From Aurantimonas manganoxydans SI85-9A1 (GTDB taxonomy: Bacteria > Pseudomonadota > Alphaproteobacteria > Rhizobiales > Rhizobiaceae), in assembly GCF_000153465.1 (NCBI RefSeq), contig NZ_CH672387.1:3776628-3840627 (forward strand): a stretch of DNA of 64,000 bases, in the 5' to 3' direction. Below, piece after piece: positions 54,618-59,758 of this stretch. The notes under the pieces are model-generated. The model saw only the letters and a program-made list of their open reading frames with translations. It did no database searches and was not told the origin of the DNA. The translations under genes were made by a program, and so were the position numbers. Numbering within the stretch: the first letter of the stretch is position 1; every line of letters starts with the position of its first letter.

Positions 54618-54747
54618 CACACGCCCTGTCCTCGTCAGGAAGCGTTCATCATCCGGGCCTACAAGCCTGTGCGCGGCGGCTATGTAATCGCCGCAATTGT
54701 GCCTATGCTCACGCCTTCGTGTCTGTTCTCAAACTCACAAGCAGCCC

Positions 54748-56358
54748 GTGAATCACAAGAGTTTTGCGTCCCGCCGTACCGCGCTGAAGACTGGTGTAGC
54801 GCTCACCCTCGCAGCGCTTCTGCCCCGTCCGGGCTTTGCCCAGGAGACGGAGGCTCCCACGCCGCCGGTCGGACAGCCGGCGACTGTCGGCGCGCCCGAC
54901 GCGCCGTTCACCTTCGATGAGCTGGCCGCGCGCATGCAGCAGCGCGCCGGCGAATCCTACAGCGCGCCGGCCAACGACCTGCCGCCGGAAATCCTCGACC
55001 TCAATTACGACGAGCACCGGGCGATCCGCTTCCGGCCGGACCACGCCCTGTGGCGCGCCGAGCCGGTGGAGTTCCACCTGCAGGCCTTCTATCCCGGTTG
55101 GGTGTTCAAGGAGACCACCAAGGTCTTCGTCGGGCAGAACGGCATCTACAATCGCCACGATTTCGCGCCCTCGGATTTCGAATACCGCCCGCCGCTGGAT
55201 CCGTCGAAATTCCAGGACCTGCCGCTGGACGGCGTTGCCGGTTTCCGGATCCACGCGCCGATCGAACGGCCGGACTATTTCGACGAGCTGGTGACCTTCC
55301 TGGGCGCGAGCTATTTCCGCGCGTTGGGCACCGGCACCCGCTACGGGCTGTCGGCCCGCGGTCTCGCCATCAACACGGCGACCAGCGAGACCGAAGAATT
55401 TCCGCGTTTCAGCGCCTTCTACATCGATGCGCCGAAGCCGGGCGATTCCCGCATCCGGCTGATGGCGGAGCTCGACAGCCCGAGCCTCACCGGCGCCTAT
55501 TCCTTCCTGATCACGCCGGGCCCGCAGACCACGATCGACGTGACCACCCGGCTGTTCTTCCGCACCGACGTCAACCGCGTCGGTATCGCGCCGCTGACCT
55601 CCATGTACACCTTTGGCGAGAACGACCGCTTCGGCCGCGACGACTTCCGCCCCGAGGTTCATGACAGCGACGGCCTGTGCATTCGCCGGGCCGATGGCGA
55701 AAAGCTGTGGCGGCCGCTGAAGAACCCCGAAAACCTGGCGATGTCCTATTTCCAGGAGACCAGCCCCCGCGGCTTCGGCCTCCTGCAGCGTGACCGCGAC
55801 TTCTCCCATTACGAAGACATCGAGGCCCGCTACGAACTGCGGCCCTCGCTGATGATCGAGCCGCTGGGCGACTGGGGCAAGGGGACCGTCGAGCTCGTCG
55901 AGATCCCGACGGATTCGGAAGCCAACGACAATATCGTCGCCTTCTGGGTGCCCGAGGCGAGGGCCGAAGCCGGCGGCGCGATGGAGTTCAGCTACCGGAT
56001 GCACTGGGGCCTCGACGTCGAGCTCGAGGACAACCAGGCCAAGGTCACCGGCACCTTCATCGGCGTCGGCGGCAACGCGGCGGATGCCGACCTGTCGACC
56101 CACCGCATCGCCATCAATTTCGAGGGCGGCAGCATTGCCAAGCTGCCCGCCGATGCCCAGATCGAGCCCCTGATCGACGTGCCGGACAACACCCGGCTGA
56201 TCCATTCGGGAATCGCGCGGCTGCCCAGTGGCGGCTGGCGCATCGCCCTGGAACTCGAGAAAACCGATTCACAGCCTGCTGAACTTCGCGTGAAACTTTC
56301 AATGCTGCAGCGCATTGTCAGTGAGACGTGGCTCTATCAATGGACGAACAGGACATGA
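54748..56358 (+). CDS. opgG: OpgG, periplasmic glucan biosynthesis protein
   Basis: 536 residues from GTG 54748. The N-terminus MNHKSFASRRTALKTGVALT is a twin-arginine signal (SRRTALK), with cleavage near GFAQ. The MdoG/OpgG domain follows (FTFDELAARMQQRAGESYSA; YDEHRAIRFRPDHALW; GASYFRALGTGTRYGLSARG; YFQETSPRGFGLLQRDRDF), covering both beta-sandwich lobes. It acts in the periplasm on the glucan backbone made by OpgH during synthesis of osmoregulated periplasmic glucans. Its stop overlaps a small orphan gene by ATGA, and opgH and opgC follow. Confidence 0.95.
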   Translation: MNHKSFASRRTALKTGVALTLAALLPRPGFAQETEAPTPPVGQPATVGAPDAPFTFDELAARMQQRAGESYSAPANDLPPEILDLNYDEHRAIRFRPDHALWRAEPVEFHLQAFYPGWVFKETTKVFVGQNGIYNRHDFAPSDFEYRPPLDPSKFQDLPLDGVAGFRIHAPIERPDYFDELVTFLGASYFRALGTGTRYGLSARGLAINTATSETEEFPRFSAFYIDAPKPGDSRIRLMAELDSPSLTGAYSFLITPGPQTTIDVTTRLFFRTDVNRVGIAPLTSMYTFGENDRFGRDDFRPEVHDSDGLCIRRADGEKLWRPLKNPENLAMSYFQETSPRGFGLLQRDRDFSHYEDIEARYELRPSLMIEPLGDWGKGTVELVEIPTDSEANDNIVAFWVPEARAEAGGAMEFSYRMHWGLDVELEDNQAKVTGTFIGVGGNAADADLSTHRIAINFEGGSIAKLPADAQIEPLIDVPDNTRLIHSGIARLPSGGWRIALELEKTDSQPAELRVKLSMLQRIVSETWLYQWTNRT

Positions 56359-56672
56359 CCGTTTTTGCAACGGAAGACCGCCGCTCCATGCAGGAGACCA
56401 ATGCCGGCCGGCTGATCGGCCGGGCCGATCTGGACGACGACGTCGTACTGGACGCCGTCCGCGCGCGCCTTGCTTCGAGCGGGCGTTCCGATGACGCCGA
56501 ACACTTGCTGGCCGCGGCCATGCAGGGCGACGCAGCGGCGCTGGCCTTCGTGCGCACGGTTGCCGTGCCGCCGCCTGTGGCCCGGCTCACCATGCCGATC
56601 CAGCCGCTAACCGGCCGGCCGCTGCGCTTCCCGACGATCTCGCTCGGCCGCCTTTCCGCCGACCGCAATTGA
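56355..56672 (+). CDS. Orphan small protein coupled between opgG and opgH
   Basis: 105 residues from ATG 56355, whose ATGA overlaps the opgG stop; ACAGGAC lies 5 bases upstream. Other in-frame starts are 56340 and 56328. The sequence (MTVFATEDRRSMQETNAGRL, then DDDVVLDAVRARLASSGRSD) has a helical N-terminal half with an Ala-rich helix (AEHLLAAAMQGDAAALAFVR) and a Pro-rich C-terminal half; no signal peptide, membrane helix or known domain is visible. Translational coupling to opgG and position before opgH suggest a part in glucan synthesis, but I recognise no family. Confidence 0.65.
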   Translation: MTVFATEDRRSMQETNAGRLIGRADLDDDVVLDAVRARLASSGRSDDAEHLLAAAMQGDAAALAFVRTVAVPPPVARLTMPIQPLTGRPLRFPTISLGRLSADRN

Positions 56673-56736
56673 TCACCATGCCTGAACGGCCCGGGGTGAT
56701 CCGGGCCGCGGCACCATCTCACCGACGGACACCGCG

Positions 56737-58530
56737 TTGATCACGGCTCAGCGTCTTCTCTTCGCCCTGGCCTCCGTCGTGCTGGCGGCGATCGCAGCTT
56801 CGCTGTTCTTCATCGTCGTGACGGTGAACGGGGTGACCTATCTGCACATCGTGCAGATCAGCCTGCTCGTGCTGTGCTGCCTCTGGCTCGCCTGGGGCTT
56901 CAACATGGCGTTGGCCGGCATCATGTCGTCCGGCGCGCCGCCGCGCCGCCGGGCGCTGCCCGGACATGTCAGCCGCACCGCCATCCTCGTCCCCGTCTAC
57001 AACGAGGACGCCGAAGCGGTGCTGGCGCGCGTCGGTGCCATGTATGAGGGCCTGCGCAGCATCGGCGGGCTCGACGCCTTCGACTTCTACATCCTCAGCG
57101 ATTCCACCCGGGCCGAGAACGTCGCCGCCGAACGGCGCGGCGTCGACATGCTCCTGTCCGAACTCGGGGCGGCCGGCCGGCTCTACTACCGCAACCGCGA
57201 GAAGAATGTCGGCCGCAAGGCGGGCAATATCGCCGACTTCGTGACCACCAGCGGCGGTGCCTACGACTACATGCTGGTGCTCGACGCCGACAGCCTGATG
57301 CGGCCGGAGACCATGGTGGAGATGGTCGCCCGGATGGATGGCGACCCCGAACTCGGCCTGTTGCAGACCCAGCCGCTGATCATCGGCCGGCGCACCCTGT
57401 TCGGCCGTGCCCTGCAGTTTTCCGCAGCCTTGTTCTCGCCGGTCTTCTCGCGCGGCATCGCCGTGCTGCAGGGCCGCGAGGGGCCGTTCTGGGGCCACAA
57501 CGCCATCCTGCGCGTGCGCGCCTTCGCGGCCTCCTGCGGCCTGCCCGACCTGCACGGCCGCCCGCCTTTCGGCGGCCATATCCTCAGCCACGATTCCGTC
57601 GAGGCGGCGCTGCTGGCGCGGGCCGGCTACAAGGTCCAGGTCGATCCGGACCTCGAAGGCTCCTACGAGGAAGCCCCGGCCAACATCATCGAATATGCCA
57701 AGCGCGACCGCCGCTGGTGCCAGGGCAATCTCCAGCACGGCAAGCTCCTCGCCGCGCCGGGGCTGAAGCTGTGGAGCCGCGTCTCGCTGGCCAGCGGAAT
57801 CATGGCCTATGCCGCCTCGCCGATCTGGCTGATGTTCCTGATCGTCAGCCTGCTGGACCCGATCCTGGCGCCCGAGCCGAACTATTTCCCGGCCGATTCC
57901 CTGTTCCCGGTGTTTCCGCGCCCCGAGACCGGCAAGGCGCTGCTCCTGCTCTTCGGCATCTTCGTCCTCTTGCTGCTGCCCAAGACGCTGATCGCGGTCG
58001 GCAGCGCCTTCACCGCTCGGCGGCGGCGGTTCGGCGGGACGCTCGCGGTGCTGGCCGGCGCGACGGCAGAACTGGTGATGACCAGCATCCTCGCCCCGGT
58101 GATGATGATGTTCCAGTCGAAGGCCGTGGCCGAGATCCTGATCGGCGCCGATGCCGGGTGGCCGTCGACCGAGCGCGCCGACGGCAGCCTGCCGCTCGAC
58201 GCCGCCTTCAAGGCGAGCTGGTGGATGGTGCTGGCCGGCGGCCTCGTGCTGTTCGCCACGATCAACTACGCCCCGAGCCTCGTCCTGTGGACCCTGCCGA
58301 TCGCGCTGCCGCTCGTCGCGGCGCCGGTCCTGATCAGCGCCACCGGCAACCCGGCGCTGGGCGACTGGGTGCGTCGCCAGCGCCTGTTCGAGACCCCCTT
58401 CGAGTCCGATCCGGAGCCGGTGATCCGCAGCTATGCCCTCTGGCAGGAGCGGCTGGCCCGTCTTTCGGCCGGTGCCGACCTTGAGAAAGCCACAGTGTCG
58501 GTGGCACCGGTGCTGCCCGATCCCGCATGA
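56737..58530 (+). CDS. opgH: OpgH, membrane glucosyltransferase for periplasmic glucans
   Basis: 597 residues from TTG 56737, the only start that keeps both N-terminal helices (about 8-28 and 35-57). A GT2 domain (about 80-360) follows: ILVPVYNEDAEAVLARVGAM, the DxD of LVLDADSLMRPETMVEMVAR at 183-185, GPFWGHNAILR and the catalytic KRDRRWCQGNLQHGKLL. Several C-terminal membrane helices (about 345-560) complete the channel. It polymerises UDP-glucose and exports the chain. It is shorter than the enteric OpgH, which has a longer N-terminal region. opgC follows by 16 bases. Confidence 0.94.
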   Translation: MITAQRLLFALASVVLAAIAASLFFIVVTVNGVTYLHIVQISLLVLCCLWLAWGFNMALAGIMSSGAPPRRRALPGHVSRTAILVPVYNEDAEAVLARVGAMYEGLRSIGGLDAFDFYILSDSTRAENVAAERRGVDMLLSELGAAGRLYYRNREKNVGRKAGNIADFVTTSGGAYDYMLVLDADSLMRPETMVEMVARMDGDPELGLLQTQPLIIGRRTLFGRALQFSAALFSPVFSRGIAVLQGREGPFWGHNAILRVRAFAASCGLPDLHGRPPFGGHILSHDSVEAALLARAGYKVQVDPDLEGSYEEAPANIIEYAKRDRRWCQGNLQHGKLLAAPGLKLWSRVSLASGIMAYAASPIWLMFLIVSLLDPILAPEPNYFPADSLFPVFPRPETGKALLLLFGIFVLLLLPKTLIAVGSAFTARRRRFGGTLAVLAGATAELVMTSILAPVMMMFQSKAVAEILIGADAGWPSTERADGSLPLDAAFKASWWMVLAGGLVLFATINYAPSLVLWTLPIALPLVAAPVLISATGNPALGDWVRRQRLFETPFESDPEPVIRSYALWQERLARLSAGADLEKATVSVAPVLPDPA

Positions 58531-58546: not shown

Positions 58547-59758
58547 ATGACCGCTGTCACCCGTACTGCCTTGAAGTCACCCCGCGATTACCGGGTGGAC
58601 TTCTGGCGCGGCATCGCGCTCGCGATGATCTTCGTCAACCATATTCCCGGCAACGTCTGGGAGAACTTCACCTCCCGCAATTTCGGCTTCTCCGACGCGG
58701 CCGAACTGTTCGTCTTCCTGGCGGGCTTTGCCTCGGCCTATGCCTATGCCCCGCTGTTCCTGGCGGGCGAGCGGGTCGCGGCGACGCTGAAGGCGTGGCG
58801 CCGCGCGGGCGTTCTCTACCTCGTCCACATCACCCTGACCGTGGCGGCGATCGGCATCTTCTCCTGGGCGGCGCTGGCGCTCGGCTATGGCGACATGATG
58901 CGCACGATCGGGCTGCGCTCCTTCATCACCATGCCGATGGAGACGATGATCGGTGTCGCCGGCCTCGGCCACCAACTCGGCTATGTGAACATCCTGCCGA
59001 TGTATTGCGTGCTCTTGCTGATGCTGCCGCTGCATCTGGCACTGGCGCAGATCAGCCGCGGCGCGATGCTCGCCGGGGCCGTCCTGATGTGGATCGTCGC
59101 CTATGTCTGGGCGATCGACGTGCCGGCCTTTCCGCTGCCAGGCGGCTGGTTCTTCAATCCTTTCTCCTGGCAGCTGATCTTCGCCGTCGGCCTCTATTGC
59201 GGCCTGAACCGGCGCGAGACCGGCGTTGCGGTGTCCTATCGGCCTTGGCTCTACGCGCTGGCCCTCGCCTATGCGCTGCTGGCCTTCCTGACCATCCGCT
59301 TCGGCCTGTGGTGGATCTGGGGCCAGAGCCCGCTGCCGGTGCTGATCACCGGCTTCGACAAGACCTATGTCAGCCTGACCCGGCTGCTGCATGTGATGGC
59401 GATCTGCTACCTCTTCGCCAATGCCGCGGCGAGCTCGCCCTTCGCCAACATCTCGCGCGACAACATCTTCACCATGCTGGGACGCCATTCGCTGCCGGTC
59501 TTCGCCGTCGGCACAGTGCTGTCGCTGTGCGGCCAGGTGCTGAAGCACGGTTCGGAACCGTCGATCTGGTTCGACACGCCGATGGTGCTGGCCGGCCTCG
59601 CGATCCTCTTCGGCCTCGCGCGCTATCTCGACTGGTGGCGCACCGCCCAGAAGGTCACGGTGCGCAGCAGTGACGCGGCCGCCGAGAGAGCGCGCGGCGC
59701 GATGGCGACGCCGGACGAGCCGCTGACGCCGATCCTCAAGACACGCCGCCCGGTCTGA
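58547..59758 (+). CDS. opgC: OpgC-type membrane acyltransferase (glucan succinylation)
   Basis: 403 residues with about ten membrane helices. The start block DYRVDFWRGIALAMIFVNHI carries the conserved Arg-Asp and His of the OpgC family, with GFSDAAELFVFLAGFASAYA following. In Rhodobacter and E. coli OpgC adds succinyl groups to periplasmic glucans and so makes them anionic. It is the last gene of the opg cluster, 16 bases after opgH, and ends in a strong hairpin. The acyl group cannot be told from sequence. Confidence 0.93.
   Translation: MTAVTRTALKSPRDYRVDFWRGIALAMIFVNHIPGNVWENFTSRNFGFSDAAELFVFLAGFASAYAYAPLFLAGERVAATLKAWRRAGVLYLVHITLTVAAIGIFSWAALALGYGDMMRTIGLRSFITMPMETMIGVAGLGHQLGYVNILPMYCVLLLMLPLHLALAQISRGAMLAGAVLMWIVAYVWAIDVPAFPLPGGWFFNPFSWQLIFAVGLYCGLNRRETGVAVSYRPWLYALALAYALLAFLTIRFGLWWIWGQSPLPVLITGFDKTYVSLTRLLHVMAICYLFANAAASSPFANISRDNIFTMLGRHSLPVFAVGTVLSLCGQVLKHGSEPSIWFDTPMVLAGLAILFGLARYLDWWRTAQKVTVRSSDAAAERARGAMATPDEPLTPILKTRRPV

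Follow-up and report, generated by a model that had tools for sequence, protein, structure and literature searches.

The 105-residue open reading frame between opgG and opgH of Aurantimonas manganoxydans SI85-9A1 is a genuine gene on which purifying selection acts, and it is very probably the known gene opgI, to which we matched it by its position in the operon. The C-terminal part of its product looks, by sequence comparison, like the same element as the cytoplasmic N-terminus of long-form OpgH. Our analysis moderately favors the view that OpgI represents, in detached form, a docking element of the glucan synthase OpgH, required in trans where OpgH lacks it. No printed link between OpgI and the OpgH N-terminus was found in the one paper library searched, which lacks most subscription journals; as far as our searches show, and within the limits of that literature, the match is new.

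The gene lies on the forward strand (56355–56672; ATG at 56355, 105 codons, stop TGA at 56670–56672) of the window, the 64,000-nucleotide stretch of DNA analyzed here. Upstream is opgG (mdoG; 54697–56358, forward strand), which encodes a periplasmic glucan biosynthesis protein (Pfam MdoG PF04349, E 3.8e-178); its TTG at 54697 is the first start in the open frame, and the true start may differ. As the first-pass annotation had stated, the opgG stop (TGA, 56356–56358) overlaps the opgI ATG as ATGA at 56355–56358, and opgH (mdoH) follows at 56737–58530 on the same strand (NCBIfam MdoH NF003959, E 1.1e-219). OpgH is of the short form, without the N-terminal motif described below. Its likely start, TTG at 56737, is 64 bases past the opgI stop, and no motif was found in the OpgH frame upstream of the short OpgH body (rows L001 and L002). 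Downstream lies opgC of the glucan succinyltransferase family (58547–59758, forward strand; Pfam OpgC_C PF10129, E 2.3e-96), for which the start at 58547 is our choice. The annotation had also described the ribosome-binding site of opgI as fair. An AGGA is indeed present at 56350–56353, but it ends one base ahead of the ATG, a spacing too tight for an ordinary site, and “fair” was generous. Since the AGGA is so near the ATG, initiation via coupling, or from the rival in-frame starts ATG 56340 and GTG 56328, is as likely as initiation from a normal site.

Rhodobacter sphaeroides has an opgGIH and opgC operon (Cogez 2002, as cited in passages of PMC10514313), and its opgI and opgH complement an E. 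coli opgH mutant, according to passages of the same paper. Like R. sphaeroides opgI, the window gene is small and lies between opgG and opgH, with opgC after opgH. The protein had been called unrecognized; by position it corresponds to OpgI of R. sphaeroides. The statement that it carries no recognizable domain was borne out, as OpgI gave no match to Pfam or NCBIfam up to E 1, and eight of its relatives gave no significant match to either. The papers found to mention opgI, which was described in 2002, give no functional role specific to it. Four Rhodobacterales plasmids carry an ORF of 56–66 residues with the same motif between opgG and opgH, and opgC follows opgH in three of them. These ORFs are annotated as “hypothetical protein” in three of the four cases and are absent from the gene table, itself incomplete, in the fourth. 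Unlike them, the window OpgI is nearly twice as long and has a helical N-terminal half.

The first-pass annotation had proposed synonymous rates as a check for coding constraint, and such constraint is present. Against the 94% identical locus L001 of Aurantimonas coralicida, opgI has a dN/dS of 0.114, with 18 synonymous and 6 non-synonymous differences; the 24 differences fall 5/1/18 over the three codon positions. Residues 67–105 show 8 synonymous and no non-synonymous differences. In the same comparison, dN/dS was 0.056 for opgG and 0.023 for opgH. A 134-aa antisense ORF (56318–56722, reverse strand) overlies opgI, and its frame also gave a low ratio (0.142). The L001 pair alone cannot rule out this antisense ORF, since the third positions are common to both frames and give the antisense frame a low ratio too. 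Stop codons interrupt the antisense frame in 16 of 25 homologous loci, and it stays open in nine; it is therefore most likely no gene. In contrast, the sense protein aligns across 26 rows, in which P72, P74, and M80 are invariant. The alternative that the ORF is a chance frame, or a bare device for translational coupling between opgG and opgH without protein function, could appeal to the many overlapping ORFs in the window and to the poorly spaced ribosome-binding site. It is contradicted by the low dN/dS with no amino-acid change in residues 67–105, by the conservation of OpgI across 26 loci, and by the retention of opgI in genome G515, where opgH is elsewhere; we give this alternative next to no chance, and the sequence evidence refutes the chance frame.

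OpgI of the window can be divided into a helical N-terminal half (residues 28–70; 56436–56564), which was delimited by AlphaFold2 and alignment and is common to the longer OpgIs of nearer relatives, the conserved motif PPPVARLTMPIQPL (residues 72–85; 56568–56609), and a basic C-terminal tail (residues 86–105; 56610–56669). Window-type OpgIs end in P-x-P-x3-L-x-M-P-x-Q-x-L, a motif defined here and present in the window OpgI, followed by the basic tail; short OpgIs end in a similar motif without the first of the motif's two prolines. Of 51 separate ORFs, two (L001 and L093) had been wrongly picked; in the remaining 49, the tail is net positive in 48 and carries a charge of +3 or more in 42. The same motif is visible in the cytoplasmic N-terminus of OpgH of other Alphaproteobacteria, for example as MPPEAPLPMPVQALDRW in L022. 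In these long forms, the motif lies inside the enzyme, before membrane helix 1, whereas in the window it is on a separate protein and OpgH starts approximately at membrane helix 1.

Profile comparison with hhalign supported this likeness. The OpgI profile gave a single match to the whole OpgH profile, aligning OpgI columns 82–108 with OpgH 30–55 (E 1.7e-4, probability 50%). In separate comparisons, the proline-rich motif common to window-type OpgI and the long-form OpgH/MdoH N-terminus was matched at E 3.9e-6 with the long OpgIs and at E 3.2e-8 with the short OpgIs, and long and short OpgIs matched each other at E 1.5e-7 (probabilities 87–95% for these three). Two Sulfitobacter OpgIs (P0002 and P0003) had MdoH NF003962 as their best NCBIfam match, at positions 8–44 of the model, although weakly (E 0.028 and 0.026).

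We trained an 18-column HMM exclusively on OpgI and applied it to the opgG–opgH interval of 146 loci (125 alphaproteobacterial, 21 other). These are the loci with a recognized upstream opgG among 194 distinct OpgH loci, a set that includes the best ~29 of ~150 from one search, part of another, and six plasmid loci, and in which L001 and L002 are near-copies. OpgH N-termini scored up to 22.1 bits, above every decoy (maxima of 7.7 bits on the reverse strand and 9.9 bits in five-fold shuffles). Above 9.9 bits, which served as the threshold, the element was in the OpgH frame at 28 loci, with OpgH starts picked mechanically, in a separate frame at 51 (26 of them outside the training set), and in both at none. 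None of these 79 loci carried the element twice in one opgG–opgH interval. Between opgG and the OpgH body lie 98–212 bases (416 in one case) in loci with an OpgH-borne element and 167–727 bases in separate-frame loci.

A single-sequence AlphaFold2 model of OpgI had a mean pLDDT of 63. It contains helices at residues 28–40, 47–56, and 60–70, a block with pLDDT 64–88 (80–88 in residues 31–70), while the C-terminal part is unstructured (pLDDT 41–53). Such a prediction would suit a small helical portion joined to a flexible tail that serves for docking. A Foldseek search of the PDB with this low-confidence model returned no match (best E 5.4), and a search for solved structures came up empty for both OpgH (at E 1e-5) and the OpgI profile (at E 1).

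We infer that OpgI binds to OpgH. Where OpgH is short, OpgI would provide in trans the proline-rich peptide and a basic tail some 20 residues long. The tail would probably rest on the membrane, and the peptide may dock on OpgH from the cytoplasmic side, next to its first membrane helix. Such docking would complete or activate the synthase, with the peptide able to act in cis or in trans. We favor this reading because the profile matches and the OpgI-only HMM place the motif in OpgH N-termini. It is also supported by the co-occurrence of OpgI and OpgH and by the element at the OpgH C-terminus or on a downstream ORF, both described below, and by the rescue of the E. coli opgH mutant with R. sphaeroides opgI and opgH reported in passages of PMC10514313. 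The reading is weakened by G515, in which OpgI stays with opgG and opgC; this arrangement would fit a tie to OpgG as well.

A search with OpgI of 120 genomes, its own included, gave 19 matches in 18 genomes at E 0.01. The 12 strongest (L002–L013) all lie between opgG and opgH, and L016 (E 0.005) is also flanked by both. The six weakest (L014, L015, and L017–L020) adjoin neither gene and are attributed to chance. The question raised in the first-pass annotation, whether homologs always sit between opgG and opgH, is thus answered positively for all 12 strong matches but not for G515. In that genome (L214:858-4230 and L215), opgG, opgI, and opgC lie together in this order, and opgH is found on the same contig at a distance of about 190 kb.

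The 26-row OpgI profile, with 23 candidates scored per genome, matched 21 of 199 family genomes at E 0.001. In 20 of the 199, the best OpgH is at least 67% identical to the window OpgH; these same 20 carry OpgI with E-values no higher than 3.2e-22, and none of the others does. The presence of OpgI in the 20 is partly by construction, since most of them contributed sequences to the profile. Independent information comes from the absences and from the unlinked copy of G515, which was outside the profile. The 21st genome, G602 (E 9e-4), has a motif-only match just upstream of a more distant OpgH. Within the genus, G000, G001, G003, G004, and G007 have both OpgH and OpgI. In G002, G005, and G006, OpgH was not found at E 1e-60, nor was a strong OpgI; G002 has one weak OpgI match, located away from opgG and opgH. 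In viral contigs, the OpgH alignment search found 29 stretches that fitted a pattern and no relatives.

We built a quick tree of 97 OpgH bodies from complete loci with the N-terminal part removed. The 35 OpgH-borne cases (23 by HMM, 12 by eye) formed one group with support 97. Separate labels were given to 34 loci by HMM and to six more by eye, and the window-type separate cases formed one group with support 100; this group includes L095, which has a separate OpgI scoring 9.5 bits and was left under “none”. Other arrangements of the element fall in other groups. Because each forms one group, the main contrast between OpgH-borne and window-type separate elements represents one switch, and the finding that the two never occur together therefore weighs about as much as a single event.

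The HMM found no element at 9.9 bits in the opgG–opgH interval of 40 of the 97 complete loci. By eye, 12 of these are OpgH-borne and six are separate variants; L095 is a further one. Seven have N-termini or ORFs of the gammaproteobacterial type, which escape the HMM, and six have candidates at the C-terminus or downstream, three of them firm. Nothing firm was found in any place examined in the remaining eight (L029, L033, L035, L036, L045, L049, L050, and L133), although L033, L035, and L036 have C-terminal look-alikes by eye; therefore, the element may be dispensable or may have moved in some of them.

At the OpgH C-terminus, the OpgI-only HMM detected the element in L131 (13.5 bits) and in L054, an Azospirillum plasmid (10.3 bits), and in these two only (decoys 7.5). 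A broader HMM gave 22.8 and 16.5 bits, respectively, against decoys of 6.2; L127 exceeded the decoys with this HMM only (9.3), and L126 hardly did (6.3 versus 6.2). The downstream search was judged by its own matched decoys, separate from the C-terminal ones. Only L030 is clear: an ORF that follows opgH carries the element there, at 13.6 and 16.6 bits against matched decoy maxima of 7.0 and 8.1. L038, with 9.6 bits downstream, is not set apart by its score from a chance-looking 25-residue frame in L121 (9.4 bits; matched decoy maximum 8.1).

The main rival of the detached-element reading is that the element, instead of completing the synthase, brings another protein to it, either the cell-division protein FtsZ or acyl carrier protein. 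OpgI would then be an adaptor, and the OpgH-borne copies would be that adaptor built into the enzyme. We regard this as rather unlikely. The E. coli OpgH N-terminus (Hill 2013, PMC3723540) is similar in that it holds a conserved proline-containing peptide in the cytoplasm before membrane helix 1. In passages of that paper, OpgH-N directly inhibits FtsZ assembly and an 18-residue peptide (residues 83–101, EAKRSSMFPDPWRTNPVGR) suffices to block division. These residues coincide in part with the 16 columns (E. coli 81–96) that are most conserved among 15 gammaproteobacterial N-termini, located before the first membrane helix, and the title of Therisod 1986 reports acyl carrier protein as essential for E. 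coli glucan synthesis. However, passages of PMC3723540 also state that OpgH-N still inhibits division after deletion or alanine substitution of the 18 residues, and a Caulobacter study reports, in passages of PMC11389396, that the N-terminus is hardly or not at all conserved relative to E. coli, arguing against the same role with FtsZ. In our own comparison, the alphaproteobacterial element showed no significant similarity to the gammaproteobacterial N-termini (hhalign E 0.29–0.67; HMM at most 0.4 bits), and homology between the two was not supported. Cogez is said to have found glucan production abolished by opgI inactivation, and such a loss would suit a part of synthesis better than a link to division. 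A broader proposal is that the peptide wanders among the enzyme N-terminus, the enzyme C-terminus, an upstream gene, and a downstream gene, that the division-blocking peptide of E. coli is a diverged form, that OpgI is a detachable link between glucan synthesis and cell division, and that long-form OpgI adds a sensing domain; we consider this a long shot.

Alternatively, OpgI could work with OpgG or as a general osmotic-response regulator, its likeness to the OpgH N-terminus being convergence of a short proline-rich stretch. In its favor, the motif spans only 14 residues, and opgI of G515 adjoins opgG and opgC with opgH elsewhere. In contrast, the profile E-values reach 3.2e-8 with scores above all decoys, the sole match reported against the whole OpgH profile falls at the N-terminus, and the Sulfitobacter OpgIs match an independent MdoH model there, if weakly; we thus judge this explanation very improbable. 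Nothing bearing on osmotic control of opgI was found. The first-pass annotation had read the product as an extra cytoplasmic factor for making periplasmic glucans or for their osmotic control. Our results support a real, conserved gene traveling with the glucan operon, but they speak for a component of the synthase and not for a further regulatory factor.

If OpgI is the OpgH N-terminal element acting in trans, the role of opgI becomes directly testable. OpgH activity would then depend on a cytoplasmic peptide, which would offer a way into the switching of glucan synthesis. A meaning would also emerge for the small ORFs that lie between opgG and opgH and are at present annotated as “hypothetical protein” or not listed.

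Other arrangements at or near OpgH were also observed. Seven small-genome Alphaproteobacteria (1.2–2.2 Mb; L031, L039, L042, L043, L159, L160, and L180) have an ORF of 143–154 residues between opgG and opgH that ends in an M-x-P-Q variant of the motif and is possibly a further type of OpgI. The likeness was seen by eye only, and the ORFs were excluded from the HMM counts because hhalign gave only E 0.29 and 0.27 against long and short OpgI. In four non-alpha Proteobacteria (L128, L129, L134, and L206), an ORF of 80–90 residues lies between opgG and an opgH with a short N-terminus; by eye, its terminal peptide is similar to the N-terminal stretch of the E. coli type, but the profile E of 0.041 is not significant. 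The genome of the window itself encodes a second MdoH-like glucosyltransferase (L149, G000:C1:291864-293609) with 35% identity and with no opgG within 1500 bases upstream. A regular-expression search upstream of L149–L154 found no motif in four of the six and a poor one in two. The best NCBIfam model for L149 is NF003963 on its first 233 residues, below the model's cut-off on this fragment, and similar copies are present in G001, G003, G004, and G007.
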